Shown here in pieces: positions 4,609 to 38,804 of a stretch of 64,000 nucleotides of DNA (the stretch's first letter is position 1; the number at the start of each line of letters is the position of its first letter). The translations under genes were made by a program, and so were the position numbers. The notes beneath the pieces are model-generated. The model was not told where the DNA came from. It searched no databases and saw only the letters and a list, made by a program, of their open reading frames with translations. Source of the DNA: an uncultured Schlesneria sp. (lineage in GTDB: Bacteria; Planctomycetota; Planctomycetia; Planctomycetales; Planctomycetaceae); assembly GCA_903840265.1 (NCBI GenBank), contig CAIMFH010000163.1:1-64000 (forward strand). Reading direction: 5' to 3'.

Positions 4609-5142
4609 TCGAACAATTTCCTTTAGATGAACCTAACCAGGACAGAAACACGACAATGTTGAACAACTGCTTCCTGCTTGTACTTTTCTTCCCTGACTCA
4701 AATCGGCGACAAGAACGCACTACGCCATAGACGACGCCCTCCTGTTGGCTAGCCTAATTCAACACTGAAAGGCCCGAGGCCTGTCTGGTCGCTCTGTTGG
4801 GTGGTTAGTTTAGGCCGCGATGTGAACATTCGATGAACAGCGCGTGAAAACTCTCTTGCCTGAACAAAAGGGGCGCAGGTCTAACCAGCAATCATCGCCT
4901 TCGTTTTATGCAGCGCACGAACGGCGACCGTGTGCGACCCACGATTTGTGAGAATTCGGCGAGTAATCGATGAACCCAACTCGCGTCATGAAAAGGGATC
5001 CACCGTCGACCACTGGATGGTGAAGCTTTGGCGATTCGACGCACGCGGCTTCGGTTCGCCGCGCTGCACTGTCGCGCGCACCGTGTACGTCCCCGAGTTC
5101 GCAGGTAACCACCGTGAAAACCCCCACCACAAAAAACAAAAA
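4609..5142. other. Long intergenic region upstream of DUF1559 paralogue 2
   Basis: No supported gene. The first 170 bases hold leader elements also found upstream of the other paralogue. The remainder (about 4800-5130) contains only short overlapping open frames without ribosome-binding sites or recognisable products. Confidence 0.5.
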
Positions 5143-5165
5143 GCCGCGAGTGAATCACTCGCGGC
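5143..5165. terminator. Rho-independent terminator after the DUF309 gene
   Basis: A perfect 10-bp stem (GCCGCGAGTG pairing with CACTCGCGGC, loop AAT) is flanked by an A-rich tract on one side and TTTTC on the other. It can work in both directions, and on the minus strand it follows the DUF309 stop by about 28 bases. Confidence 0.88.
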
Positions 5166-5192
5166 TTTTCATTTCACAATTCGTGATGACAT

Positions 5193-5756
5193 CTATGCCA
5201 GCGGCATCGGTTCCGTCTGCAGAACAAACGGGAACACGCGCGACGGCTTGTGCGGCGAACTGATGCGTTCCTTGTAAGAAATCTGGGCGGCACGATCGGC
5301 GGCAAACTGCAGCAGAGTGAACTCCAGACCGCAGAAATATTCCGAACCGACTTCAGCCGCGACATCGGCAAAAACTTCGCCAGCCGAAGCCGCATGTCGA
5401 CGGACGCCGTGGATGCTGTTCTCGCGAACCTTCACGCCAGCGGCCGACAACTTCACCAGCCCCTTCAGAAACTTTCCTACGGCCGTATCGGGCCCAGAGG
5501 CGCGCCATAGCCGTTCCCACTCTTCATGAGCTTCCCAATAGAAGCCGTGATTAAAGAAATCCAGCGCCAGCAGGTAGTGACGGTTTTCGGCCCAATTGGT
5601 CGGCGTCAGCATGCGTGGCGGAGGTGATTTCCGTTGGTAGCTGTGGCCGCGTGGATCGCGAATAGGATGCGGGGTATCCGATCCTGGAACAAATGTATAA
5701 CCCGGCAAATCGGTTGACGGGAGGAGCCTGACGGCTTCGACGGTTGCTTCCATCAT
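5193..5756 (-). CDS. DUF309 domain protein
   Basis: About 187 residues. The DUF309 signature is clear in the middle: [20 protein letters not shown], the H-x-x-x-W/Y-E-A-H-E-x-W-E helix typical of the family, followed by [18 protein letters not shown]. The family is alpha-helical and of unknown biochemical role; the conserved His and Glu suggest a possible metal site. An N-terminal extension of about 55 residues, rich in Pro and including [15 protein letters not shown], precedes the domain. The frame opens at a GTG (5759), but the ATG at 5756 with GAAGGAA upstream is the likelier start. It stands alone with its own terminator. Confidence 0.85.
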
Positions 5757-6110
5757 CACTTTCTAGTTCCTTCACTCTAATTTGCGAGCCGAATTGGCTC
5801 GAAAATCTCCGCTTAGTCCCACTAAAACGAGTTAATCAAAAGGGTTCGATCAACTCGGTGTGTTGGCGGCCCGGATGCATTCTACGCAAACGAATTCCTG
5901 CGTTCTTGATTCCAACGAGGACTGGTAACTCGCTCGGCGCGACCGCAAAATCTTGAAACGCGGCAGAGAACCAATAGGGCGAGAACCAACTTCGACCGAG
6001 ATCATGGGCAGGACTCGCTGAGGCCCAAGTTCGGGTTATCAGAGAGATTAGGGACCTAGCATACCGCAGAAATTCGTAATTGGGAGAGGAATTTCTTAAT
6101 TTTCCTGAGT
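5757..6110. other. Intergenic region, nothing recognised
   Basis: About 350 bases between DUF309 and sufE. It presumably holds the DUF309 promoter and the 3' region of sufE. I see no hairpin with a T-run, no conserved open frame and no RNA gene. Confidence 0.5.
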
Positions 6111-6545
6111 TCAGGAAGGAACGGCCCCGTCCCCTTGGGCAACTCGTACTGCCTGCTTAAGCCGCGCAATCACCCCGCGAAACCCCTGCTGCCGCGTCAT
6201 TCCCAACGCCGAACCAAGCCCCAACGCGGAAATCAGGTCATCCGGCAGGCTCCGCACGGCCTCGACGGATTCTCCATCCAGGCCCACCACCACCAGTGCC
6301 ACCAATCCGCGAACTGTCGGCGATTTTTGCGGGACATCCGCCTCCAAATGCACCCGTCCCCGCTCGACATCGACCCACAGGTGTACCGGAGTCTGGCACT
6401 CCTGGACTCGACACGTCTCTGGAAACGGGACCGCGGCCCGGTTGCCCGAAATCGCCGGCAGTTGGTCGGCAAACTCAACCAGCCATTCCAGCTTCTCCGT
6501 ACTATCCAATTCGGCCAATTCGGCGGCCAACTCATCCAGCTTCAT
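6111..6545 (-). CDS. sufE: SufE-family cysteine desulfuration protein
   Basis: 144 residues, the usual SufE length. SufE accepts persulfide sulfur from the cysteine desulfurase SufS and passes it to the SufBCD scaffold for Fe-S cluster assembly in the cytoplasm. The N-terminal helix pair (LDSTEKLEWLVEFADQLPAI) and the segment CRVQECQTPVHLWVDVE match the family; the Cys of VQECQT is the expected sulfur acceptor. The C-terminus shows LGLGSALGMTRQQGFRGVIA, close to SufE's conserved xLSPxRxNG-like end. ATG 6545 is chosen behind GAGGGAG; an upstream extension in the same frame (to 6713) has no family similarity. No sufS or sufBCD is adjacent. Confidence 0.9.
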   Translation of the reverse strand: MKLDELAAELAELDSTEKLEWLVEFADQLPAISGNRAAVPFPETCRVQECQTPVHLWVDVERGRVHLEADVPQKSPTVRGLVALVVVGLDGESVEAVRSLPDDLISALGLGSALGMTRQQGFRGVIARLKQAVRVAQGDGAVPS

Positions 6546-6818
6546 AAACTCCCTCGTACAAAAAGCATTGTTTGAAAGAGTATAGCCGTTTCCAAATTTC
6601 AGATCATGCTGGCGTAGTATCGGGTCAGCCAGATTCTGCGCAACCAATCGCGCCAAGAGATTGGGCGAAGTCGATGTGCGACCAACGACTACACGAGTTG
6701 TGCCACTCAACACACGCTACCGTTTCCCTAAGCGAAGTTGAGTTGGTTACAATCATCCCTGCTCGCCCACAGGACGGGAGGTATTAAGGCCCAAGCCGAC
6801 AAAGAAAGATCTCTGGAA

Positions 6819-7997
6819 ATGAATGGTCTTCAAGTGACAGGCGCCGGCCACCGGATTAAGCGCGCCATGGCGGTCGGCCTGATTCTGATTTACGCAACAG
6901 GCACTTGTACTGCGGCGACGCTGGAGAAGAATATCGCTGCGATTCGGGCCGTGGGACCAGAAGGGCAGGGACACTCGGCTGCGATTGCTGCAATGAAAGA
7001 GCTATCGGTCGGCCCTGCAGATTCTTTATTTCCACTGCTCAATGCCTTCGACGACGCCAGTCCGCTCGCCATCAACTGGCTGCGCGGTGCCGTCGATGCC
7101 GTCGCCGATCGGGAGCTGAAGTCTACGGGCCACCTCCCTGCGGCGAAGCTGGAAGCGTTCATCAAGGATACCAGCCGCCGTGCGGAAGCGCGGCGACTGG
7201 CTTATGAGTGGCTGATCAAGGTGGATCCCGCCGCCGCCGACCGCCTGATCCCTGGCATGATCAAAGACGCCAGCCCGGAATTTCGTCGTGATGCCGTTCA
7301 GCGTCTCATCAAATTGGCTACCGGTGCCCAAGAAGAAAAGCAGCCGGAGCGAGCCCTGAAGCTTTACCACGAAGCGCTCGCCGGAGCGGTCGACGACGAT
7401 CAAGTCAAATCGATCGTCACACCGCTACGCGAGATGGGCCAGACCATCGACCTCCAGAAGCACTTTGGCTTCCTGACGGAGTGGTCCATCGCAGGTCCGT
7501 TCGACAACACCGGCCTGAAAGGCTTCGATACAGTCTACGCACCGGAAAAAGGAATCGACCTCGCCGCGACCTACGACGGGAAAGAGGGGCCAGTGACATG
7601 GAAGAAGGTTTCGACGGCAGATGAGTACGGAGTATTGAACATCGCCAAGCAGCTCTCTCCGTTCAAGGGGGCCGCGATGTATGCCACGACGACCTTCGAC
7701 TCGGACAAAGCTCGTCCCGTCGAATTCCGATTGGGTACTCCCAACGCCTGGAAGTTGTGGGTGAATGGCAAGCTGGTCTTTGCTCGCGACGAATATCATC
7801 GCGGCGTGCAACTGGACCAATACTCGGTGAAAACCGATCTCAAGAAGGGCCCGAACGTCATTCTGTTAAAGGTCTGCCAGAACGAGCAGACGGAAGAATG
7901 GGCTCAGGACTACAAGTATCAGATCCGCATCTGCGACTCGACAGGTGCCGCCATTCTGCCAAGTCCCGCCGCGGCCACATCTCAAGTCGTTCGTTGA
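6819..7997 (+). CDS. Secreted HEAT-like protein with a C-terminal beta domain
   Basis: About 392 residues from ATG 6819. A signal peptide lies at about residues 15-35 (RAMAVGLILIYATGTCTAA). Residues about 40-215 are alpha-helical, with repeats resembling HEAT or tetratricopeptide units (IAAIRAVGPEGQGHSAAIAA, SPEFRRDAVQRLIKLA, PERALKLYHEALAGAVDDD). From about 225 (FLTEWSIAGPFDN) a beta-sandwich follows, with AWKLWVNGKLVFARDEYHRG and GPNVILLKVCQNE. This is typical of galactose-binding-like domains that planctomycetes fuse to exported proteins. The role is unknown. A PQQ-propeller gene starts 56 bases downstream on the same strand, so the two are probably co-transcribed and act outside the cytoplasm. 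Confidence 0.82.
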   Translation: MNGLQVTGAGHRIKRAMAVGLILIYATGTCTAATLEKNIAAIRAVGPEGQGHSAAIAAMKELSVGPADSLFPLLNAFDDASPLAINWLRGAVDAVADRELKSTGHLPAAKLEAFIKDTSRRAEARRLAYEWLIKVDPAAADRLIPGMIKDASPEFRRDAVQRLIKLATGAQEEKQPERALKLYHEALAGAVDDDQVKSIVTPLREMGQTIDLQKHFGFLTEWSIAGPFDNTGLKGFDTVYAPEKGIDLAATYDGKEGPVTWKKVSTADEYGVLNIAKQLSPFKGAAMYATTTFDSDKARPVEFRLGTPNAWKLWVNGKLVFARDEYHRGVQLDQYSVKTDLKKGPNVILLKVCQNEQTEEWAQDYKYQIRICDSTGAAILPSPAAATSQVVR

Positions 7998-26945: not shown

Positions 26946-28058
26946 ATGTCTATGATCGTGACGGGAATCGGAACCGCATCACCGCAAATTAGTGTCACTC
27001 AGACAGCCACCTACGAGACGACTCAGGAGCTATGCTGCGAGTCCGATGAGCATCGTCGTGTGATGCAGCTCATCTATCAGGGAGCTGGAGTTCAACAACG
27101 AGGCACGGTGCTGCTGGATACGCCCGTCGAGCAAGTGAACGACGACACTGCGTTCTTCAAGGCCCGCCGCGATCTGGATGATTTCGGCCCGACAACGGGC
27201 GAACGCATGCAGAAGTATGAAGAGCATGCACTGATTCTCGCGCTGAAGTCGTGCGAAGACGCACTGTCACAGGCCGACCAGGATGTGGCCGAAATCACGC
27301 ATCTGGTGACAGTTTCGTGCAGCGGATTCAGCGCACCGGGCTTCGATATTGGTCTGATCCAGGAACTGGGGCTCTCGCCAGAGACCTCACGCACGCACCT
27401 TGGTTTCATGGGATGTCATGGCTCATTTAACGCTTTGCGAGTTGCCAAAGCTTATGTCGATGCCGATCCGAAAGCGGTCGTGCTGGTCTGCTCGGTCGAA
27501 CTCTGCAGTCTGCACCATCACTACGGGTGGTCCACCGAAAAGGTGATCGCGAACGCCCTCTTCGCCGACGGATCCGCAGCCGTGGTTTGCCGCAATGCTC
27601 CAAGCGGTCAGATCCCAGCCCATTCGAAATATGAAGTGATTCGCAGCGGATCGCACGTCCTGCCAAAGACGCTGGGCGCGATGAGCTGGCGGATCCGCGA
27701 TCATGGATTCGAAATGACCCTGTCGCAGAAGGTGCCTGCCCTCATCGAGCAAAACCTGAAAGCGTGGATGGTCGATTTCCTCGCCAAAGACGGGCTGACA
27801 ATTCAGGACATCAGCGGTTGGGCCATCCATCCCGGAGGCCCACGCATCCTGGACGCCTGCGTCACTGCCCTGTCCATCTCGACCGATGACGTCATGCCTT
27901 CGCGGGAAGTTCTGGCTCGATACGGCAACATGTCGTCCGCGACTGTGCTGTTTTTACTGAAGCATATGAAGCAGCAACCGCTGGTGGGACCAGTTGTCGC
28001 GCTCGGATTCGGCCCTGGCCTGACAATTGAAGCCATGTTGCTGAACTCGGAGTCATAA
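26946..28058 (+). CDS. Type III polyketide synthase (chalcone synthase-like)
   Basis: 370 residues, the family's usual size. Type III synthases are homodimers that condense malonyl-CoA onto a starter acyl-CoA without acyl carrier protein. The catalytic triad is complete: Cys157 in LGFMGCHGSFNAL, His295 in GWAIHPGGPRILD, and Asn328 in RYGNMSSATVLFLL. The C-terminal GFGPGLTIE loop is also present. Substrate cannot be read from the sequence; bacterial relatives make alkylresorcinols, alkylpyrones or tetrahydroxynaphthalene. The thiamine-dependent enzyme 36 bases downstream may share its transcript, although a biosynthetic link is not established. Confidence 0.94.
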   Translation: MSMIVTGIGTASPQISVTQTATYETTQELCCESDEHRRVMQLIYQGAGVQQRGTVLLDTPVEQVNDDTAFFKARRDLDDFGPTTGERMQKYEEHALILALKSCEDALSQADQDVAEITHLVTVSCSGFSAPGFDIGLIQELGLSPETSRTHLGFMGCHGSFNALRVAKAYVDADPKAVVLVCSVELCSLHHHYGWSTEKVIANALFADGSAAVVCRNAPSGQIPAHSKYEVIRSGSHVLPKTLGAMSWRIRDHGFEMTLSQKVPALIEQNLKAWMVDFLAKDGLTIQDISGWAIHPGGPRILDACVTALSISTDDVMPSREVLARYGNMSSATVLFLLKHMKQQPLVGPVVALGFGPGLTIEAMLLNSES

Positions 28059-28094
28059 ACAGTCCAGTCTCTCCCATCGCACGGAGGCGGTCGC

Positions 28095-29843
28095 ATGTCA
28101 ACAGTCGGAGACGCGATGGTTCAGATGTTCGCCTCCGCCGGAGTCGAACGAATCTATGGGCTGGCGGGCGATTCGTTGAACGGCATCACCGATGCCGTTC
28201 GGCGCCATGAGACGATCGAATGGATGCATGTTCGTCATGAAGAAGCCGCCGCCTTCGCAGCGGGAGCCGAGGCGCACCTTACGGGGCGCCTCGCTGTCTG
28301 CGCGGGGAGCTGCGGACCGGGTAATCTGCATCTGATCAACGGCTTGTACGACTGCCATCGTAGTCGTGTTCCCGTCGTTGCCATCGCTTCGCAGATTCCC
28401 AGTCAAGAATTGGGAACTGGCTACTTCCAGGAGACGCACCCCGAGCACATCTTCGCTCAATGCAGTCATTTCTGCGAAGTGGTCTCCAGCGCCGATCAAG
28501 TACCACGTCTGTTGAACATCGCAATGCAGACCGCACTCTCGAAGCGCGGGGTAGCGGTGATCATTCTGCCGGGCAACCTGGTGATGCAGAAATTGACGTC
28601 CAAGATCCCACCGGGCCGTTTCCCCGAACCAAAGCCCAGTCTTTCACCGTCCGAGTTTGAATTGGACGAGTTGGCCGGGCTGCTGAATGGTGCGAAGGAC
28701 GTGACCATTCTGGCCGGCGCCGGTTGCGCGGGGGCTCATACCGAGTTGATCGACTTGGCTGCTCGATTGAAAGCACCCATTGTCCATGCGATGCGCGGCA
28801 AGGAGCACATCGAGTATGACAATCCGTATGACGTTGGCATGACCGGACTGCTGGGCTTTGCATCCGGTTATCATGCGATGATGAATTGCAGCATGCTGTT
28901 GATGCTGGGAACAGATTTCCCATATCCGCAATTCTACCCGACGGGTGCCACGATCGTGCAGATCGATGCTCGCGGCGAACAGTTGGGCAGACGTACCCAC
29001 GTTAACTATGGTTATGTCGGTGACACCAAGACCACGCTGCGACAGTTGCTGCCCCGCTTGCAACAACACCAGGACGAAGAGCATTTGAACGGCTCCAAGG
29101 CCGATTATGCCAAGGCTCGCCAGAGCTTAAACGACCTAGCCGTTGAAGACGCAGACGAGTCCATCATTCATCCGCAGTATGTGACGCGAGTCCTGGATGA
29201 ACTCGCCGCACGCGATGCGATCTTTACCTGCGATGTCGGGACACCGACAGTCTGGGCTGCCAGATACCTGACGATGAACGGTCAGCGACGACTGATTGGT
29301 TCGTTCAATCACGGCTCGATGGCAAACGCTCTGCCTCAGGCCATCGGTGCCTCAGCCAGTCACAAGGGGCGGCAGGTAATCGCCATGTCGGGCGACGGCG
29401 GAATCGCCATGATGCTGGGCGATCTGTTGACGCTGCAGCAATTGAATCTGCCCGTCAAAATCATCGTCTTCAAGAATGATTCGCTGGGTTTTGTCGAACT
29501 GGAAATGAAAGCGGCGGGAATACTCGACTTCGGAACAGACTTAAAGAATCCTGATTTCGCCAAGATCGCCGATGCCTCTGGATTGCTGGGGCTCACCGTC
29601 GAGAAATCGTCAGATGTGCGTCCCAAGATTGCACAGGCATTGGCACACGACGGTCCGGCACTGGTCGAAATCGCGGTCACGCGACAAGAACTGTCGATGC
29701 CACCCACGATCACACTTGATCAAATCAGTGGTCTGGGTTTATTCATGATTAAGGCGGTTCTCAGTGGGCGAGGTACCGAAGTGATCGACCTCGCCAAAGT
29801 GAACTTGTTACGCAACATTGCCGGCGTGATGGGTCTTAAGTAG
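28095..29843 (+). CDS. Thiamine-diphosphate enzyme, PoxB-like pyruvate oxidase
   Basis: 582 residues, close to E. coli PoxB (572). The Pyr domain carries Glu49 in VRHEEAAAF, which activates thiamine diphosphate. The central domain should bind FAD in oxidases (TDFPYPQFYPTGATIVQID). The PP domain has GDGGIAMMLGDLLTLQQLNL and the NDS motif in FKNDSLGFVELE. Unlike acetolactate synthases, it has a C-terminal extension past PPTITLDQISG that could be the membrane-activation helix of PoxB (LFMIKAVLSGRGTEVIDLAK). It probably decarboxylates pyruvate to acetate with quinone as acceptor. ACGGAGG precedes the ATG. Confidence 0.85.
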   Translation: MSTVGDAMVQMFASAGVERIYGLAGDSLNGITDAVRRHETIEWMHVRHEEAAAFAAGAEAHLTGRLAVCAGSCGPGNLHLINGLYDCHRSRVPVVAIASQIPSQELGTGYFQETHPEHIFAQCSHFCEVVSSADQVPRLLNIAMQTALSKRGVAVIILPGNLVMQKLTSKIPPGRFPEPKPSLSPSEFELDELAGLLNGAKDVTILAGAGCAGAHTELIDLAARLKAPIVHAMRGKEHIEYDNPYDVGMTGLLGFASGYHAMMNCSMLLMLGTDFPYPQFYPTGATIVQIDARGEQLGRRTHVNYGYVGDTKTTLRQLLPRLQQHQDEEHLNGSKADYAKARQSLNDLAVEDADESIIHPQYVTRVLDELAARDAIFTCDVGTPTVWAARYLTMNGQRRLIGSFNHGSMANALPQAIGASASHKGRQVIAMSGDGGIAMMLGDLLTLQQLNLPVKIIVFKNDSLGFVELEMKAAGILDFGTDLKNPDFAKIADASGLLGLTVEKSSDVRPKIAQALAHDGPALVEIAVTRQELSMPPTITLDQISGLGLFMIKAVLSGRGTEVIDLAKVNLLRNIAGVMGLK

Positions 29844-29885
29844 GACGCGACGACAAGTGCCCTCCATTCTGGTATCTTCGGCGTT

Positions 29886-30827
29886 ATGAACGGATTGACT
29901 GTCTCACATTTGCGGAAGTGCTACGGCGACCTGACTGCCGTTGAGGATTTGGACCTGCAAGTTAGGCGGGGGGAAATCTTCGGCTTGATCGGACCCAACG
30001 GCGCCGGCAAGTCCACCAGCATGATGATGATCATCGGATTGCTGAAGCCAGACTCCGGAACGATCTCCTTTGATGATCAGCCGTTTGATATCCGCAGTTC
30101 AGAAATGCGATCCCGGTTCGGTCTGGTTCCTCAAAACCTGGCGATTTACCCGGAATTGACGGCGATTCAGAATCTCAGGTTCTTCGGCCGCCTGAACGGA
30201 TTATCCGGTCAAAAGCTGAACGAGCGAATTGATTTTGTCTTGCACATCACGGGGCTTCAGGACAAAGCCAATCATAAGGTCGACACATTTTCCGGAGGGA
30301 TGGCACGACGCCTTAATTTCGGCGTCGCGCTGGTCCATGAACCCGAATTTGTCGTTCTGGACGAACCGACTGTCGGAATCGATCCACAGTCGAGAACCAA
30401 CTTGCTGGACGGAATTCGAGAGCTCAAAAAGCGGGGCGCGGGCGTCCTTTATGCGTCGCACTACATGGAAGAAGTCGAAGCGATCTGCGATCGCGTTGCG
30501 ATCATGGATCACGGTCGGCTTCTAAAAGAAGGAACGCTCGACGAACTGCTTGACCGAAACCAGGCCGAACTCGCCATCGATGTGGAATCGCTGCCGGACG
30601 ACGTTGCAACCAAACTACGTGAGATCGCAGAAATCGAGACCAATCCCGCGGGGAAGATTCGCATCCAGGTCAGCCATTCATTACATCACCGAGACGACTC
30701 CAATCATCTTCGCAGCGTCTTTGAGATTTTGGACCAGGCAGGCATCCCGCTGGAGAATGTGACTTCGCAACAAACGAGTCTCGAAACGCTCTTCCTCAAA
30801 CTGACTGGCAGAAAGTTGAGGGATTGA
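29886..30827 (+). CDS. ABC-2 type exporter, ATP-binding subunit
   Basis: 313 residues. Walker A GPNGAGKSTSM, signature FSGGMARRLN and Walker B FVVLDEPTVGIDPQSR identify the ATPase; the H-loop lies in YASHYMEEVEAICDR. The DRI/multidrug-type C-terminal tail (from about 220) ends ENVTSQQTSLETLFLKLTGR, as in ABC-2 exporters such as YhhJ- or CcmA-like systems. Its stop overlaps the permease start by one base (TGATG), so subunits are translationally coupled. Substrate is unknown. Confidence 0.92.
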   Translation: MNGLTVSHLRKCYGDLTAVEDLDLQVRRGEIFGLIGPNGAGKSTSMMMIIGLLKPDSGTISFDDQPFDIRSSEMRSRFGLVPQNLAIYPELTAIQNLRFFGRLNGLSGQKLNERIDFVLHITGLQDKANHKVDTFSGGMARRLNFGVALVHEPEFVVLDEPTVGIDPQSRTNLLDGIRELKKRGAGVLYASHYMEEVEAICDRVAIMDHGRLLKEGTLDELLDRNQAELAIDVESLPDDVATKLREIAEIETNPAGKIRIQVSHSLHHRDDSNHLRSVFEILDQAGIPLENVTSQQTSLETLFLKLTGRKLRD

Positions 30828-32059
30828 TGGGTGCCTGGGTCATCACTCTGAAAGATCTCCGCCTGATCGCTCAAGATCGCGGCGCGCTCTTTACGCTGCT
30901 CGCATTGCCGATCGTGTTCATCGCCATCCTGGGGATGTCGACGGGCCAGATGCTCTCGCAACGCGACGATGTCAAGCTGATCAATATCGGTTTCGTCGAC
31001 GAAGATCAGACCGAACTGTCTGAAGCGATCTTTGATAATTTGCATTCGATCGGCGGCCTGAAAGTATCCAAGGTTCGAAATCACGTCGAGGCGTTGCGAG
31101 AACTGCAGGACGGTCGCAATGGTTTGGCAATTACCGTTGGCAAAGACTTCCACAATCGAGTCGAAGACCTGGATATGGGGGACGTGCTCGACGCCCGGCA
31201 CGGCAAGCTGGAACATGGCCTCTCGTCACTCGACATTCAAGTCGATTGCGGTGCTGCCTATGTCAGCGTCGAAGACATGGTGAAGTACGTCGCGTTTGCA
31301 GCAGTCATGCAGTCGGTCGCCCCGGCCGTCACGCGTCGATCGTCTTTGTTTTCTCGCGTCGTCGATCAGATGCTTGAGCGACACAAGCAGGAAGCCAGCG
31401 AGGGAGGCAACGCCAATCCGGGTACGGCCGAACCCGTGAGACGGACCACCAACATCATCTATCAAACGCTGGTCCCGGCGTTCATGGTGCTATTCGCTTT
31501 CTTCCTCGTGAATATCATGGCCAGTTCCTTCATTGGTGAGCGCGATCGCGGCACGCTGCGACGCATGCAGGCGACCCGAGTCACCCCCGTCCAGTTGCTG
31601 ACAGGCAAAACGCTGCCGTTCTTGCTGGTGTCGGTCGTGCAAAGCGTCCTGTTGTTCCTCTCGGGCAAACTCATGTTCGGCATGTCCTGGGGTACTCACC
31701 CCGCAATGCTGTTACCCGTAATCCTGACCACCTCGTTCGCCGCCACGGGACTGGGATTGCTCGTCGCGACATTCGTTCGGACCGAATCTCAAGTCTCCTC
31801 CTACTCCACCTTCCTGGTCGTGGTACTGGCAGGGATCAGCGGTTGCTACATGCCGCGCGATTGGTTGCCCGAAATCATGAAAAACATCAGCCTCGCCACG
31901 CCTCATGCCTGGGCGTTGATCGGATATCAGGAGCTACTTACGCGTGAACAGCCAAATCTGCAACTGGTCGCGAAATGTTGCGGTATTCTAACAGCCATGG
32001 GCGGGGCCTGCTTTGCGTTCGGTTGCGTCCGATTCCGCAGATTCGAGTACCCTGTCTAA
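30827..32059 (+). CDS. ABC-2 type exporter, permease subunit
   Basis: 410 residues from ATG 30827. The architecture is that of ABC-2 permeases: one membrane segment (TLLALPIVFIAILGMS), a large extracytoplasmic domain of about 200 residues, and five or so C-terminal segments beginning LVPAFMVLFAFFLVNIMASS. The motif SSFIGERDRGTLRRMQATRVTP before the next helix is typical of the family. The last part contains GISGCYMPRDWLPEIMKNIS and PHAWALIGYQELL. It works with the upstream ATPase. Confidence 0.92.
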   Translation: MGAWVITLKDLRLIAQDRGALFTLLALPIVFIAILGMSTGQMLSQRDDVKLINIGFVDEDQTELSEAIFDNLHSIGGLKVSKVRNHVEALRELQDGRNGLAITVGKDFHNRVEDLDMGDVLDARHGKLEHGLSSLDIQVDCGAAYVSVEDMVKYVAFAAVMQSVAPAVTRRSSLFSRVVDQMLERHKQEASEGGNANPGTAEPVRRTTNIIYQTLVPAFMVLFAFFLVNIMASSFIGERDRGTLRRMQATRVTPVQLLTGKTLPFLLVSVVQSVLLFLSGKLMFGMSWGTHPAMLLPVILTTSFAATGLGLLVATFVRTESQVSSYSTFLVVVLAGISGCYMPRDWLPEIMKNISLATPHAWALIGYQELLTREQPNLQLVAKCCGILTAMGGACFAFGCVRFRRFEYPV

Positions 32060-32322: not shown

Positions 32323-33183
32323 ATGCCGAAAAACAAATCGCGAATCGCAGAGATTCTCAAAGCACATCAGGACGATCTTGCCGCGGAATGGGTCAAGAAT
32401 CTGCAGGCGACCGGAACTGGTAAGGATTCACGAATCAGTGAATCTCAACTGCGAGAGCAGACGAAAGAATTCCTGGTCCTGCTGAGTGAAGCCGCCGCCG
32501 TAGGTGGTGATGTGCACAGCCAAGCGTGGAACGCGACGGTCGACTTCCTGGAGGACGTGTCACGCTCACGAGTCCAGCAGGGCTTTACCTCCGAAGAAAC
32601 GGCTCGATTTATCTTCTCGTTCAAGCAGCCGTTGTTTGCTCGATTGCGAGCGGAACTGGCAAAAGACCACGAAGCATTCGCTGAAGAGACCTGGGCAGCC
32701 ACCGAACTGCTCGACAAGATGGGATTGATCACCATCGCGGCGTTTCAGAAGACCCGCGAAGATCTGATCAACCGGCAACAGCAAGAGATGCTGGAACTCT
32801 CGACCCCCGTCGTCAAGATGTGGGATGGGATTTTGGCCCTGCCCATGATCGGCACGCTCGACAGTGCTCGTACTCAGATCGTGATGGAATCGTTACTGCA
32901 GCGAATAGTTGATACCGGAGCGGAACTGGCGATCATTGATATCACCGGCGTTCCGACGGTGGATACGCTGGTCGCCCAACATCTCCTCAAGACCGTTACG
33001 GCGATCCGCCTGATGGGTGCCGACTGCATCATCTCCGGCGTCCGACCACAGATCGCTCAGACCATCGTCCACTTGGGTGTCGATCTGCAAGGGGTCACCA
33101 CGAAGGCCAATCTGGCCGATGCACTCAGCCTGGCTCTCAAGAAGTTGGGGTTTGCTGTCACTCGAACCAAAGCAGCAAACTAG
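32323..33183 (+). CDS. RsbR-like stressosome protein (RsbRD-type N-terminus, STAS)
   Basis: 286 residues from ATG 32323; the longer frame from 32218 has no similarity. The N-terminal half (about 1-150, ILKAHQDDLAAEWVKNLQ) resembles the RsbRD sensory domain and not the globin domain of RsbRA. The C-terminal STAS domain (about 160-278) has ELAIIDITGVPTVDTLVAQH and GADCIISGVRPQIAQTIVHL. Thr215 in PTVDT aligns with a kinase target site in Bacillus RsbR. The second site is Ser238 (IISGVRP) where Bacillus has Thr. With RsbS it should build the stressosome shell that holds RsbT. Confidence 0.9.
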   Translation: MPKNKSRIAEILKAHQDDLAAEWVKNLQATGTGKDSRISESQLREQTKEFLVLLSEAAAVGGDVHSQAWNATVDFLEDVSRSRVQQGFTSEETARFIFSFKQPLFARLRAELAKDHEAFAEETWAATELLDKMGLITIAAFQKTREDLINRQQQEMLELSTPVVKMWDGILALPMIGTLDSARTQIVMESLLQRIVDTGAELAIIDITGVPTVDTLVAQHLLKTVTAIRLMGADCIISGVRPQIAQTIVHLGVDLQGVTTKANLADALSLALKKLGFAVTRTKAAN

Positions 33184-33196
33184 TTGAAGGAACGCA

Positions 33197-33628
33197 ATGG
33201 ACCGGATTCCAATTCTTCGCATGGGCGAATTTCTGCTCGTGTCGATCCAAGTCGATATGCATGATCAGTTGGCGATGACCCTGCAGGACGATCTTACGTC
33301 CATGATTGAACGCACGGGTGCCCGCGGCGTCCTGATCGATATTTCCGCTCTGGAAATGGTCGACTCCTTCATCGGACGCATGATCGCCAATATCTCGGGG
33401 ATGTCTCGCATTCTCGACGCCCATACCGTCGTCGTCGGTATGCAACCTGCAGTGGCCATCACACTGGTGGAACTCGGTTTGTCTTTGCCCGGTGTGAAAA
33501 TGGCGCTCAATATCGAAAAAGGAATGGCATATTTGCGAGCCCAGCGGGCTGCGGAAGAAGGCGATGGCCCCAATGACTTGCGCTATTCGGATGATGGGGG
33601 GGCAGGTTATGGCACTCGTCAAGAGTGA
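33197..33628 (+). CDS. rsbS: RsbS-like stressosome scaffold (STAS)
   Basis: 143 residues, essentially a single STAS domain. RsbS binds and inactivates the RsbT kinase until phosphorylated. RIPILRMGEFLLVSIQVDMHD is the expected opening, and GVLIDISALEMVDSFIGRMI contains Ser57, which I align with the Ser59 phosphorylation site of Bacillus RsbS. VVVGMQPAVAITLVELGLSL is the second family motif. It has a 20-residue C-terminal extension beyond Bacillus RsbS. It lies 13 bases after rsbR and overlaps rsbT by 20 bases. Confidence 0.92.
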   Translation: MDRIPILRMGEFLLVSIQVDMHDQLAMTLQDDLTSMIERTGARGVLIDISALEMVDSFIGRMIANISGMSRILDAHTVVVGMQPAVAITLVELGLSLPGVKMALNIEKGMAYLRAQRAAEEGDGPNDLRYSDDGGAGYGTRQE

Positions 33629-34013
33629 GGAACTACCCGTTCGAATTGAACAAGATGTCGTGATGGCGCGTCAAGCAGTCCGTCGGCTGTCGGTCGAATT
33701 GAAGTTCAGCCTGGTCGATCAAACGAAGATGGTGACAGCCGCCAGCGAACTGGCACGTAACACCGTCGTTTATGGCGGCGGCGGCACCATGCGCTGCGAA
33801 GTCCTCATCGACGGCGGTAAATCTGGACTAAGGCTGACTTTTGAGGATCAAGGGCCCGGTATTCCTGACATGAGCCTGGCCATGAAAGACGGCTGGACCA
33901 GCGGCGGCGGCATGGGGATGGGACTTTCCGGAGCCAAACGTCTGGTCAACGATTTTGAGATTGTCAGCGAAGTCGGCAAAGGGACGCGGGTGACCATTAC
34001 CCGTTGGAAGTAA
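33609..34013 (+). CDS. rsbT: RsbT-like serine/threonine kinase
   Basis: 134 residues from ATG 33609 (inside the end of rsbS). RsbT is a GHKL-fold kinase that phosphorylates RsbR and RsbS and, once free, activates a downstream partner. The N-box AASELARNTVVYGGGG, G1 FEDQGPGIPDMSLAMKDG and glycine lid SGGGMGMGLSGAKRLVNDF are all intact. The match to Bacillus RsbT length (133) is close. The usual partner there is RsbU phosphatase; here the next gene is a kinase-phosphatase fusion. Confidence 0.93.
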   Translation: MALVKSEELPVRIEQDVVMARQAVRRLSVELKFSLVDQTKMVTAASELARNTVVYGGGGTMRCEVLIDGGKSGLRLTFEDQGPGIPDMSLAMKDGWTSGGGMGMGLSGAKRLVNDFEIVSEVGKGTRVTITRWK

Positions 34014-34016
34014 TTC

Positions 34017-35045
34017 ATGGCGGCGATGCATTTAAAGGTCCCTGTGCGGGAGCAAAGCCAGATCGGCGATGCGCGACGGCAAGCCACGAAGATCGCCGAC
34101 GAGCACGGCTTGGACGAAACGTGCCGGGGCCGCATCGCCTTGGTCGTCACCGAACTGGCCACGAATCTGGTTCGCTACGGCAAAGAGGGAGAAATTCTCG
34201 TTCGCGCCGACATCGTCAATGATCAAAAGTTACTCGAAGTGATCGCGATCGATCGCGGTCCTGGAATCGCCAACATTCAGAGATGCCTGGTCGATGGTTA
34301 CTCCACGGGAGGGACACCCGGTAATGGAATGGGTGCCATCCAGCGGCTGAGCCTGACTTTTGAGATCTATTCAGCCGTCCCGGCGGGCACTGTGATCTAC
34401 TGCCAAGTCGGTGAACAGGAAACCGCGCGTCCACCCAAACTCCATAGCACATGGAGTGCGATCAACATTCCGGCTCTTCACGAGATGGTTAGCGGCGACA
34501 CGTGGCGCGTGTGCGAACGCGATCATCAGCTCTCCGTGTTGGTTGTCGACGGGTTGGGACATGGACCTGAAGCGGCGATTGCTGCCGAGGCGGGTGCCGA
34601 GGCATTTGATCGTGATCCATTCCTTCCGCTGGTGTCAATGATTGAGAATCTGCACGTCAGGATGCGAGGAACTCGAGGCGCGGCCTTGGCCGTGGCACAG
34701 ATCGATACGAAGAGCCAGCAGGTGAAATATGCTGGTGTTGGTAATATCTCGGCATCGATTAGGGAGTCTGGCGGTGGCACGGGGCGCGGGCTATTCTCGC
34801 ACAATGGCATCGTCGGCGTGCAGTTCCGTAAAGCACAAGAGTTCGATTACCCATGTCCGCCAGGTGCTTTGCTGATTCTGCACTCGGATGGACTGCAGAC
34901 GCGTTGGTCGTTAGATAACTATCCGGGATTACAGCAACGACATCCCGGCCTGATCGCCGCCGTACTCTATCGTGACTTTTGTCGCGGTCGAGATGATGTG
35001 ACTGTCGTTGTGATTCGCCTGCCTGCCACAGGATCGAGGGCTTGA
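34017..35045 (+). CDS. Fused RsbT-like GHKL domain and PP2C/SpoIIE phosphatase
   Basis: 342 residues. Residues about 1-135 are a second GHKL kinase domain, with LVVTELATNLVRYGKEGEIL, AIDRGPGIANIQRCLVDGYS and the glycine lid GGTPGNGMGAIQRLS. Residues about 150-340 are a PP2C-like phosphatase resembling RsbX, with LSVLVVDGLGHGPEAAIAAE carrying the D-G metal motif, ALAVAQID, VGNIS and ILHSDGLQTRW near the end, and DFCRGRDDVTVVVIRL. In Bacillus RsbX resets the stressosome by dephosphorylating RsbR and RsbS. The fusion could give both activities to one protein. It starts three bases after rsbT. Confidence 0.88.
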   Translation: MAAMHLKVPVREQSQIGDARRQATKIADEHGLDETCRGRIALVVTELATNLVRYGKEGEILVRADIVNDQKLLEVIAIDRGPGIANIQRCLVDGYSTGGTPGNGMGAIQRLSLTFEIYSAVPAGTVIYCQVGEQETARPPKLHSTWSAINIPALHEMVSGDTWRVCERDHQLSVLVVDGLGHGPEAAIAAEAGAEAFDRDPFLPLVSMIENLHVRMRGTRGAALAVAQIDTKSQQVKYAGVGNISASIRESGGGTGRGLFSHNGIVGVQFRKAQEFDYPCPPGALLILHSDGLQTRWSLDNYPGLQQRHPGLIAAVLYRDFCRGRDDVTVVVIRLPATGSRA

Positions 35046-35980
35046 TGACGACCGAGACCTCGAACACCCCCTGTCCTGAACAAGAGAACGCGTCACTGCG
35101 GGCTCAGATTCAGTCGCTGGAGCAGCAGGTCAACATCCTGAACGGTGAGCTCGCCGAGACCAACCAAGGTGTCGTGGCTCTCTATGCAGAACTCGACAAC
35201 AACGCGATTGCGCTTCGCGAAGCGTCCGAATTGAAGAGTCGCTTCCTGTCCTACATGAGCCACGAGTTCCGCACGCCACTGGGATCAATCCGCAGCATTG
35301 CGCGAATTCTGCTTGACCAGATGGACGGCCCCCTCACCGGCGAACAGACCAGGCAGGTCAAGTTCATCCAGCAAGCGGCCGTCGAACTGAATGAGACCGT
35401 GAATGATTTGCTCGACCTTGCCAAGATCGAAGCGGGCCGTATCAGCATCTCGCCTGCCTGGTTTGAACTGGTCGACCTCTTCGAAGCCATCCGCGGCATG
35501 TTCAAACCACTGCTCGTCAATGACGCCGTCTCCCTGATTTTGGAAGAACCTGGCGAGATGCCACGCGTCTATACCGACGACAAGAAGCTTTCGCAAATCC
35601 TGCGAAACTTCATCTCCAATTCGTTGAAGTTCACCAACGCCGGCGAGATTCGCGTTTCCGCTCGCCGCACGGGCGAGAATGAGGTGACATTCGCTGTCTC
35701 TGATACCGGAATTGGGATCGCCCCGGAATATCATCAGGCGATCTTCAAAGACTTCGTGCAGATCGATTCGCCGACGCAGCGGAAGTGGCGCGGCACCGGA
35801 TTGGGGTTGTCGCTTAGCAAGAAGTTCGCGGAACTGCTCGGGGGCAGTGTCGCCTTGCAGAGTGAGCTAAACGTCGGCTCGACGTTTTCAGTAACGGTTC
35901 CTCTGCGTTACGATGGGGCGGAAAATCTAGGAACGAACGATAGAACAGGCGACGGGAGGACGCCGTGGTATGTTAAATAG
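35045..35980 (+). CDS. Soluble sensor histidine kinase in the stressosome block
   Basis: 311 residues from ATG 35045 (TGATG overlap with the preceding stop). No membrane segment is present. Residues about 12-62 form a coiled coil (ENASLRAQIQSLEQQVNILN). HisKA follows, with His73 in FLSYMSHEFRTPLGSI, and HATPase_c has N-box LRNFISNSLKFTNAG, SDTGIGIAPEYHQ and GTGLGLSLSKKFAELLGG. It has no sensor domain of its own, so input must come through the coiled coil or a partner. In stressosome modules lacking sigma-B, such kinases are proposed targets of freed RsbT; this is inference here. Confidence 0.92.
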   Translation: MTTETSNTPCPEQENASLRAQIQSLEQQVNILNGELAETNQGVVALYAELDNNAIALREASELKSRFLSYMSHEFRTPLGSIRSIARILLDQMDGPLTGEQTRQVKFIQQAAVELNETVNDLLDLAKIEAGRISISPAWFELVDLFEAIRGMFKPLLVNDAVSLILEEPGEMPRVYTDDKKLSQILRNFISNSLKFTNAGEIRVSARRTGENEVTFAVSDTGIGIAPEYHQAIFKDFVQIDSPTQRKWRGTGLGLSLSKKFAELLGGSVALQSELNVGSTFSVTVPLRYDGAENLGTNDRTGDGRTPWYVK

Positions 35981-37913
35981 CAGTCCGACCATTCTCGTCG
36001 TCGATGACAATCCAGGCACCCGCTACTCGACCTCGCGTATTCTGCAAAGCGCGGGTTGGACGGTGACCGAAGCGGGAACCGGCACCGAAGCGCTGGCGAA
36101 GGCGAAAGATCGCGTCGACATGGTCGTGCTGGATGTTAACCTTCCAGACATTGACGGTTTCACGGTTTGCCGCATGCTGCGCGAACGAGAAGTGACGTCC
36201 CGAGTTCCGATCCTGCACCTGTCAGCCAGCTTCGTCAGCAGCGAAAGCAAGGTTACCGGACTGGACGCTGGTGCCGATGGCTACTTAACTCATCCCGTTG
36301 AGCCCCCCGTCCTCATCGCGACTGTCAGATCGTTCCTCAGATCACGGCAGTTCGAGATTGAACTTCGTCAAAGTGAAGCGAGATTCAAAGCGGTCTTCGA
36401 CAACGCGCTCACCGGTGTTTCGCTGCTCGACGAGCAGCTCGTCTACGTCGACGTGAATCCGAGGATGTGCGAACTACTCGGCATGGGCCGCGACCAGATT
36501 CTGGGCAAAAATATCGAAGAGTTGGTCGCCCTCGAAAATCGTTCGGCTGTCGAAGAAATCTTACGCAGCCTCCTCGAACAACCTGCCTGGCAAGGCGACC
36601 TGCCGCTCCACCGTGCCGATGGAAATCGCGTCCACCTTGAATGGCATGTCTCTAAACATGCCGATCCGAATTTGCGACTGGCGATCGTCAGCGATATCTC
36701 CGGCCGCTTGCGATACGAGTCCGAACGAGAATCGTTACTCCTGAGCGAACGTGCCGCACGAGCGGAAGCGGAACGAGCCAACCGTCTGAAAGACGACTTT
36801 CTGGCGACGTTGTCGCATGAACTGCGGACACCCCTCAATGCGATTGTCGGCTGGTCGCAAGTCTTGCGTCTGGGAAACCTGCCGCCAGCCGACATCGAAG
36901 AAGGCCTGGAAGCCATCGAGCGAAACAGCCGCGCCCAAGCCCAGATGATTGCCGACCTGCTCGATATCTCGCGCATCACCTCCGGCAAGCTGCGGTTGGA
37001 TATGGAGCGGCTGGATTTGGCACCTGTCATCGATGCGGCTCTCAAAGCAATCCAGCACACAGCGAATGAAAAATCGATCCGCGTGACCAGGACGCTGCAG
37101 CCCGATTGCTGCCTGATTCCAGGCGATCCGTCGCGCATTCAGCAGATTTTGTGGAATCTGGTGAATAACGCCGTGAAATTCACGCCCCACGGCGGCAACA
37201 TCAATGTCAGCCTGCAGCAAGTCGGCGACTACGTCGAGATCCGCGTTGCCGATAGCGGCCAGGGGATCTCTTCCGAATTGGTCTCGAAAATCTTCGAGCG
37301 ATTTCAACAGGGCGACTCCAGCAGTACCCGCGAACACGGTGGCCTGGGGCTTGGCCTCGCCATCGTCCGCCAACTTGTCGATCTGCATGGGGGACAAGTC
37401 ACTGTCGAAAGCGATGGCCTGGGACAAGGGTCAACCTTCATCGTCACGCTACCGACCGAATTCGCGCCGCACCTCGAACAACCCAGCACATCTGAACCAC
37501 AAGCCCATCTGAGTAGCTTGGCTGATCTCACTGGAACGCGCGTCTTGATTGTCGAAGACGACCCGGATTCGCGGAAACTCACCAAGCGCATTTTGACGGA
37601 AAGTCACGCCGAAGTCCGCGAAGCGAGCGATGTTCAGCAAGCCTTGGCTCAACTCGACCAATTCCAACCGCATGTGCTGGTCAGCGACCTGGGCCTGCCG
37701 GGTCGAGACGGGTTTGAACTAATGCGGGAAGTCCGCCAACGAGGTTATACCTCCAAGTCCCTCCCCGCCATCGCCCTCACCGCGTTCGTCCAACCCGAAG
37801 ACCGCCGCCGCGCATTGCAGTCCGGCTTCCAAGTCCACATGGCGAAGCCCATCGACCCGCACCACTTGGTCTCTACGATCGCCTCACTCGTCGGCACCGC
37901 GGCAGCGAAATAG
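35970..37913 (+). CDS. Hybrid histidine kinase (REC-PAS-HisKA-HATPase-REC)
   Basis: 647 residues; the ATG lies inside the last codons of the preceding kinase (11-base overlap). Domains in order: receiver with Asp55 (MVVLDVNLPDIDG), though the usual Lys of the K-P motif is replaced (GYLTHPVEPP); PAS (about 135-250, FKAVFDNALTGVSLLDEQLV); HisKA (FLATLSHELRTPLNAIVGWS); HATPase_c (LWNLVNNAVKFTPHGG, ADSGQGISSELVSK, GGLGLGLAIVRQLVDLHGG); and a second receiver (from about 525, LVSDLGLPGRDGFEL, HMAKPIDP). No DNA-binding output is present. It probably ends the stressosome transcript and passes the signal to an unlinked regulator. Confidence 0.92.
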   Translation: MLNSSPTILVVDDNPGTRYSTSRILQSAGWTVTEAGTGTEALAKAKDRVDMVVLDVNLPDIDGFTVCRMLREREVTSRVPILHLSASFVSSESKVTGLDAGADGYLTHPVEPPVLIATVRSFLRSRQFEIELRQSEARFKAVFDNALTGVSLLDEQLVYVDVNPRMCELLGMGRDQILGKNIEELVALENRSAVEEILRSLLEQPAWQGDLPLHRADGNRVHLEWHVSKHADPNLRLAIVSDISGRLRYESERESLLLSERAARAEAERANRLKDDFLATLSHELRTPLNAIVGWSQVLRLGNLPPADIEEGLEAIERNSRAQAQMIADLLDISRITSGKLRLDMERLDLAPVIDAALKAIQHTANEKSIRVTRTLQPDCCLIPGDPSRIQQILWNLVNNAVKFTPHGGNINVSLQQVGDYVEIRVADSGQGISSELVSKIFERFQQGDSSSTREHGGLGLGLAIVRQLVDLHGGQVTVESDGLGQGSTFIVTLPTEFAPHLEQPSTSEPQAHLSSLADLTGTRVLIVEDDPDSRKLTKRILTESHAEVREASDVQQALAQLDQFQPHVLVSDLGLPGRDGFELMREVRQRGYTSKSLPAIALTAFVQPEDRRRALQSGFQVHMAKPIDPHHLVSTIASLVGTAAAK

Positions 37914-38804
37914 CTATAGCGGCCTCGGCGTATTCCCAATCACAAATTGAGATTTGAGATCGCTTCTCATCAGCCTCGCAGCACTTTTCAGTGCCGACCT
38001 CTGCAGTCGCGAATCAATTGTCAGTAAACATGCACTTTTTTGAGGAAAACCGCCAAAAACAGGGCCGTTTTGTCCCCCAATGTCAAAAACTGTCCTGGGG
38101 TGTCAAAATCTGTCAGTGAAATCTTTGAAGAAAGATCCCAAGTTTTCCAAACACCATCTTGATCAGCGCACCACAAACCGGACAATCATCTTCACGACGA
38201 TCGTCACAGGTGCACCGTAACCAACGGACACGCCTCTGGGCCGCTCTCTTAGCGGAAGATCAGAGGTTCCGGTTCCTTAGTTGATAACGATCAAGACCGC
38301 GCTGTCCCCACGCTCTTCCCTGAGCGGCGGGCGTAAGCCCCCTGGCCCAACAACACACAAACCCTATTGCCACACGAGTTCGCAATACGACTACATGAAA
38401 GCACCTTCGCGCAGCTCAACGGCCGCGTCGACCCTTACTGTTTGGTACTGACTGCCCCCAGAAAGAAGAACGTGACCACATGACGACCCACTTGTCACAC
38501 CCCAAACAAGGCCCAATCGCCAGATTGGCCTCGAGCGCTAATGTCAGCGATCTGTCACTTTTCTGTCCGCAACTTCACGTTTCCGTGTGAAAAAATCGTC
38601 ACCCCCCCGAAAACCCTGCCATGGACTGACAAATTCTGCCAAATCGTAAGGAAACAGAACCCAACGATGTTCCGGATCCTCTTCTGCCCTCAATTGACCA
38701 CCACTCGAGGACTGCGCCCTCCAACGGTCGCATTTCAATGACGCCGGGTCTAAAGTGTAAAAAGTGGACCTGTTTTCGACTGGCAGCAAGCTTTTTGAGT
38801 GGCG
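37914..38804. other. Long non-coding stretch with decayed sequence
   Basis: About 890 bases without a supported gene. On the minus strand 38113-38259 encodes some 48 codons between stops, including RCTCDDRREDDCPVCGALIK, a CxC/CxxC zinc-ribbon-like string ending in FLQRFH. That could be the tail of a degenerate mobile-element or other gene. Around 38320-38345 sits a short hairpin-like GAGCGGCGGGCGTAAGCCCCC, of a kind I recall recurring between genes in planctomycetes. The motif TGTCA is frequent near both ends. Nothing else is recognisable. Confidence 0.4.

Follow-up and report, generated by a model that had tools for sequence, protein, structure and literature searches.

A conserved stressosome–two-component operon in an uncultured Schlesneria and a helix motif that may link RsbT to its histidine kinase

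Introduction

RsbU becomes active when RsbT orders its coiled-coil linker, and linkers of this type have been proposed to be exchangeable between kinases and phosphatases (PMC12143880; this and the other papers cited are represented here by excerpts of their text). In the excerpt of PMC9237108, no RsbU_N domain was detected in most downstream proteins of stressosome modules, and other bacteria with stressosome genes beside two-component genes have been described (PMC9237108, section 10; PMC10014275). We analyzed a stretch of 64,000 nucleotides (the window; positions 1 to 64,000 of contig CAIMFH010000163.1) from the genome of an uncultured Schlesneria sp., a soil bacterium of the Planctomycetota (assembly GCA_903840265.1; 7.49 Mb, 204 contigs). 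Positions 32323-37913 carry a six-gene operon for RsbR, RsbS, RsbT, a GHKL-PP2C protein (X), a histidine kinase (HK) and a hybrid kinase (HY). The operon is a real, well conserved stressosome–phosphorelay of the published kind. Its possibly new part is a motif in the N-terminal helix of HK, ETNxGVxALYAEL, together with RsbT-like domains fused ahead of this helix in relatives, which may be a clue to the link between RsbT and HK.

RSTX modules with two-component output in Gram-negatives, such as rsbRSTX-VvD1-VvD2 of Vibrio vulnificus and the HisKA/REC types, resemble the window in that RsbR, RsbS, RsbT and X are immediately followed by a sensor kinase and receiver proteins, without a SigB cascade (PMC9237108). 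The two differ in that X of the window has an extra GHKL domain whereas that paper describes X as a single-domain PP2C, and in that RsbR carries RsbRD_N instead of a globin. The output also differs, with a sensorless HK and a REC-PAS-HK-REC hybrid in the window, a comparison that follows the text of PMC9237108 and not its Fig. 3, where similar layouts may appear. Variovorax, Ramlibacter, Pseudomonas and Xanthomonas have operons with the gene set and gene order of the window, and the Pseudomonas HY is ~28-36% identical to the window HY. The stressosome-RsbU-SigB system of Bacillus subtilis shares RsbR, RsbS, RsbT and an RsbX-like phosphatase with the window; in contrast, the window genome has no RsbU_N match and no SigB above the cut-off. 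An earlier note, made from the letters of this DNA, had called a planctomycete version of this gene set little studied; novelty for the combination of stressosome and two-component genes is not supported, given the publications on other bacteria (PMC9237108, PMC10014275). For planctomycete stressosomes, no paper pairing both subjects was among the matches listed. The features of the operon are as follows.

rsbR, 32323..33183, + strand: RsbRD_N sensor and STAS domain, phospho-sites Thr215 and Ser238 (Pfam, PDB RsbR matches)
rsbS, 33197..33628, + strand: STAS scaffold with Ser57 (Pfam, PDB RsbS, E 2.7e-30)
rsbT, 33609..34013, + strand: GHKL switch kinase (Pfam HATPase_c / HATPase_c_2); open frame from 33564
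X, 34017..35045, + strand: N-terminal GHKL (HATPase_c_2) and C-terminal RsbX-like PP2C (SpoIIE) domains (Pfam, alignment, model, Foldseek)
HK, 35045..35980, + strand: sensorless HisKA and HATPase_c kinase, His73; open frame from TTG 35042
ETNxGVxALYAEL segment of the HK helix, 35156..35194, + strand: here ETNQGVVALYAEL; proposed stressosome-input site
HY, 35970..37913, + strand: REC-PAS-HisKA-HATPase-REC hybrid kinase with Asp55, His283 and Asp573 (Pfam)

Results

The ETNxGVxALYAEL segment is a conserved stretch of the HK N-terminus. Pfam detected no sensor domain in HK, and the structure model (predicted local distance difference test, pLDDT, 78 overall) shows the N-terminus as a single helix, residues 12-91 of the 312-aa frame, continuing into HisKA. 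Ten of the 13 motif columns were invariant in 81 HK rows, the acceptor His was kept in 81/81, and no column before residue 36 was invariant in a 15-row alignment. Motif counts among the 80 related loci described below are biased by their choice on HK similarity, and a search of 72,556 plasmid records is the fairer test. The query, a 54-aa helix segment ending upstream of the HisKA His, matched 24 places in 24 records from 10 distinct organisms, and all 24 places lay 1.6-2.6 kb from an rsbS match (the Nonomuraea place was confirmed separately). Among the 96 rsbS-bearing plasmid records, 24 carried the helix at E<=0.01; at this threshold it was not found in the rsbS-bearing plasmids of Phaeobacter (58 records), Streptomyces (8) or Listeria (2). 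The corresponding 54-aa stretch of HY gave zero plasmid matches, a weak control, from which it follows only that not every such stretch is conserved. The motif was not found in four kinases of other contexts (L171-L174) that are 40-42% identical to HK. It was present in 71 of 139 HisKA sites, 64 of them in loci with rsbS; the other seven are the window and L035, L036, L043, L161, L162 and L164, and six of these are cut by contig ends. Neither the motif nor the RsbT-like fusions were found described in the literature searched, which does not establish priority. At L196 (genome G311, 4839-6629, - strand), a planctomycete stressosome set precedes a PAS-HK-REC protein, and the diverged stretch ADTNREVLALTLEMD lies in the N-terminal helix of that protein.

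With a hidden Markov model (HMM) of stand-alone RsbTs, an RsbT-like domain was recognized at the N-terminus of effectors from Deinococcus, Sphingomonas, Paraburkholderia, Caballeronia, Phaeobacter, Salipiger and several planctomycetes. In the actinobacterial loci L197, L198 and L201, a degenerate RsbT-like domain without HMM match was recognized by eye and alignment. We analyzed 17 fusions, of which 14 stand beside rsbS and three (L161, L162, L164) start at contig ends; the motif is present in 12. The kinases of Deinococcus (L165, L170), Sphingomonas (L166) and planctomycetes (L023, L024, L163) have the helix and mostly a HisKA core homologous to that of the window HK. They carry the RsbT-like domain in cis, whereas the window HK has no such domain. 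As outputs, the fusions have HisKA kinases, HisKA_2 kinases (in L168 and L199, which lack the motif) and, in Streptomyces L197, a single PP2C that carries the motif. A second Nonomuraea locus outside the 17 (L202) has, by eye, a degenerate domain and two copies of the motif.

With the HMM of stand-alone RsbTs, the fused domains mostly scored 59-110 bits, with two at 31 and 44-47. The GHKL tree separated stand-alone, X and fused domains, and support was modest (87 for the fused domains and 88 for X, neither value starred). Most ATP-site residues are lost in 5/17 fused domains; all 28 stand-alone RsbTs and all 28 X halves kept at least 6 of the 8 residues. This loss suggests that the fused domains have a docking role. 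In a tree of HK cores rooted on other kinases, the domain-less kinases formed one clade (99/97) inside the domain-bearing ones, and the simplest reading of this nesting would therefore be loss of the RsbT-like domain in the HK lineage. Eleven operons have an RsbT-like HisKA kinase next to R-S-T-X; in seven of them (L023, L024, L028, L163, L165, L170, L198) a following protein begins with a receiver, which fits a transfer from kinase to receiver. One of these loci, L165 (3134-8938 of plasmid MP1 of the laboratory strain D. radiodurans R1), comprises R-S-T-X, a REC kinase and a kinase bearing an RsbT-like domain. DR_B0026 is named RsbT among the D. radiodurans proteins changed under oxidative stress in the excerpt of PMC7143949.

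The stressosome core proteins keep their phospho-sites and ATP site. In a PDB search, RsbS matched the solved stressosome RsbS 6qcm (E 2.7e-30) and RsbR matched RsbR chains, best 7o0i (E 3.5e-34); the RsbT matches at E<=0.001 were anti-sigma F factors only (E 1.8e-6). Ser57 of RsbS was invariant in 77/77 aligned rows, Thr215 and Ser238 of RsbR were kept in 76/76 and 73/76 rows, and Glu62, Asn66 and Asp95 of RsbT were kept in 77/77, with the ATP-site residues complete. By these residues, RsbR and RsbS are predicted to be phosphorylatable and RsbT to have an intact ATP site. The six + strand genes overlap, touch or lie 3-13 bases apart (open reading frame list and junction letters), and the tight packing and gene families given in the earlier note agree with Pfam and the frame coordinates. 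The start of rsbT is probably 33609 rather than 33564, since the resulting ~134 aa is the length of most relatives' RsbT. HK probably starts at ATG 35045, in a TGATG junction with X; its acceptor is therefore His73, as previously numbered.

The operon is conserved well beyond Schlesneria. A scan of genome contigs with HK gave 449 relatives, and the best 80, chosen by HK similarity, were the loci analyzed. All six genes occur in the same order in 76 of these 80; of the remaining four, L035, L036 and L043 are at the start of their contigs, and in L058 rsbR is divided between two frames. Because the order is alike in 76/80 loci, the association goes beyond chance, and the comparison supports the two kinases as conserved stressosome partners. 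Hosts of the 76 complete loci among these best 80 of 449 are nearly all Betaproteobacteria and Gammaproteobacteria, mostly Pseudomonas. Apart from L029, the locus of the sister metagenome-assembled genome (MAG), the loci (79) have an HK 57-70% identical to that of the window. The same gene set was also found on plasmids of Variovorax paradoxus and Xanthomonas vasicola. The operon had been presented as a planctomycete version whose synteny should be compared across Planctomycetes; the order indeed holds, mainly outside that group, being typical of many Proteobacteria and rare in Planctomycetota. Among 392 genomes of Planctomycetota, HK was found in six (E<=1e-62) and RsbS in 12 (E<=1e-16).

X combines features of RsbX with an added domain. 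Its model is confident (pLDDT 91.6) and contains the extra N-terminal GHKL domain. In Foldseek, the structures nearest to the PP2C half were 3zt9, a stressosome phosphatase of Moorella, with TM 0.90, and B. subtilis RsbX 3w40, with TM 0.82 (both by target length). Both the GHKL and the PP2C motifs were invariant in a 32-row alignment. X thus has the SpoIIE/PP2C domain with metal-binding Asp beside RST that is expected of RsbX, and is RsbX-like but not plain RsbX because of the added GHKL domain. Since its PP2C half is closest to 3zt9 and RsbX, X is more likely a reset enzyme than a target, judging from the model. The earlier note had proposed the downstream kinases, the GHKL-PP2C fusion included, as targets of RsbT: control of a kinase gained support from the RsbT-like domains on HK relatives, and the fusion as a target was not supported, in view of that similarity of its PP2C half. 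In L029 (7969-9924), X and HK form one 651-aa frame with one extra base relative to the window, which could be a genuine fusion or an error in the MAG. We set this frame aside as evidence of contact, as it rests on that single base.

The receivers and the second kinase of the phosphorelay are likewise conserved: Asp55 and His283 of HY were kept in 77/77 rows and Asp573 in 76/77 (one gap), so that HK and HY together hold the conserved His and Asp phospho-acceptors of a two-component phosphorelay. No conserved gene was found downstream of HY, the largest shared group covering 9/73 loci. In L188 (G101, - strand), the open reading frame 5751-7721, which follows a planctomycete R-S-T-PP2C set, looks like a sigma-54 activator (GESGTGKE by eye) and is possibly a different output from a stressosome set.

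No RsbU, RsbV, RsbW or sigma factor is encoded within the block, as originally noted. In profile searches of the whole genome, RsbU_N (PF08673) had 0 matches, and 0/17 matches to the SigB/F/G profile were above the curated cut-off; among 14 control genomes, B. subtilis alone matched RsbU_N. Nine SpoIIE matches were found in the genome. Neighboring STAS and HATPase_c_2 genes, RsbV/RsbW-like, lie away from the block on contigs C138 and C166 of the same genome, in a HATPase_c_2 search that was not exhaustive, as the window's own RsbT was missing from its list. The earlier note had held that rsbU, rsbW or sigB elsewhere in the genome, co-regulated with the block, would tell against its reading; the RsbU and SigB searches leave that reading standing, and the RsbV/RsbW-like pairs and the nine SpoIIE matches argue against pressing it too far. 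The system is not a partner switch of the RsbU-SigB type, with neither an RsbU_N target nor a SigB-type sigma factor found, and an RsbU-like target was rejected on the same RsbU_N result.

Discussion

We favor, with moderate confidence, a pathway in which an RsbRST stressosome with X as reset phosphatase signals through RsbT, which docks in trans on the HK helix and thereby controls a two-kinase phosphorelay. As the families suggest, upon stress RsbT would phosphorylate RsbR and RsbS and then leave the complex. Freed RsbT would dock on ETNxGVxALYAEL of the bare HK helix and alter the activity of HK, by analogy with its ordering of the coiled-coil linker of RsbU; the proposed input is parallel to that case, but without an RsbU_N domain. 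HK would then phosphorylate HY at its N-terminal receiver, and the phosphate would move on from there to an output protein encoded elsewhere. X would remove phosphate from RsbR and RsbS, as RsbX does, and reset the complex. We infer the docking, its direction and the final output. The comparison with relatives is most simply explained if RsbT-type domains act at the helix, in cis in the relatives and possibly in trans in the window. More tentatively, and as something possible rather than probable, ETNxGVxALYAEL may be a portable stressosome-input helix, served by an RsbT-like domain in cis or, in Schlesneria and the Proteobacteria with the six-gene set, by RsbT in trans, with varied outputs (HisKA kinases, and in Streptomyces a PP2C) in several phyla and without RsbU_N.

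Several observations weigh against this pathway. Five of the 17 RsbT-like fusions (L167, L168, L169, L199, L201) are without the motif, and domain and motif are therefore separable. A clade of the fused kinases was not rejected (approximately unbiased test, p 0.129), so that domain loss is not proven. Among the 24 plasmid records with the helix, 15 are strains of D. radiodurans. In V. vulnificus, VvRsbT and the downstream kinase VvD1 showed no positive interaction, according to the excerpt of PMC9237108. Finally, rsbT and HK are separated by X, whose own GHKL domain might be what docks.

If so, the GHKL half of X would dock on the HK helix, and X would be a two-way switch that reads stressosome phosphorylation and holds or frees HK. 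X immediately precedes HK where the order is conserved, its GHKL site retains 6-8 of the 8 residues across 28 rows, and X and HK share one frame in L029, although the extra base behind that frame may be a sequencing error. However, X retains its GHKL half where HK has its own RsbT-like domain and is thus not that domain's substitute, and most X halves score 37-71 bits with the RsbT model (L196 147) against mostly 59-110 for the fused domains. We regard this arrangement as unlikely.

We give still less credence to control of HK by RsbT or X through Ser/Thr phosphorylation instead of docking, for example at the motif Thr. That Thr is invariant in 81 rows, which speaks for such a mechanism, but the ATP site is lost in five of the 17 RsbT-like domains fused to the same helix. 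That the kinases merely share a transcript with the stressosome and respond to separate signals, such as one sensed by the PAS domain of HY, is very improbable, given a sensorless HK, a gene order kept in 76/80 loci, a motif restricted to rsbS neighborhoods on plasmids, and HK relatives fused to RsbT-like domains.

The proposed docking of RsbT on the HK helix bears on a wider point. The motif and the fusions address how stressosomes without RsbU_N targets signal onward, and point to a site of about a dozen residues. They fit the proposal of exchangeable coiled-coil linkers in the excerpt of PMC12143880, and the motif may serve as a tool to spot stressosome-controlled effectors in genome data.

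The distribution of the operon in Schlesneria is patchy. In a FastTree of 82 joined operons, which gave long-branch warnings, the window and L029 stood apart from the Betaproteobacteria clade and Pseudomonas. The other planctomycete loci in this tree, L023, L024 and L163, clustered with Caballeronia L028, away from the window, which suggests that planctomycete copies have separate histories. Among 14 Schlesneria relatives, only the sister MAG G012 (Schlesneria sp. RYN_441) has an HK orthologue, so that together with the window genome 2/15 genomes have one; this patchiness suggests gain, or loss in the other genomes. The purB region of nine Schlesneria relatives is without the operon and without the four genes upstream of it, in a comparison that left out G004, G009, G013 and G014 (same genus, no HK orthologue). 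The G+C content of the operon is 0.571 and that of the remainder of the window 0.556. Horizontal transfer was considered and not adopted: no donor was found, and the G+C content was uninformative. Downstream, ~810 bases (37914-38723) separate HY from purB in the window and are missing at the equivalent place in L029. At 26946-32059 of the window, chalcone-synthase-like and thiamine pyrophosphate-enzyme genes (both named by eye) and ABC-transporter genes adjoin purB; they were not found at purB of nine other Schlesneria genomes and are common to the window and G012.

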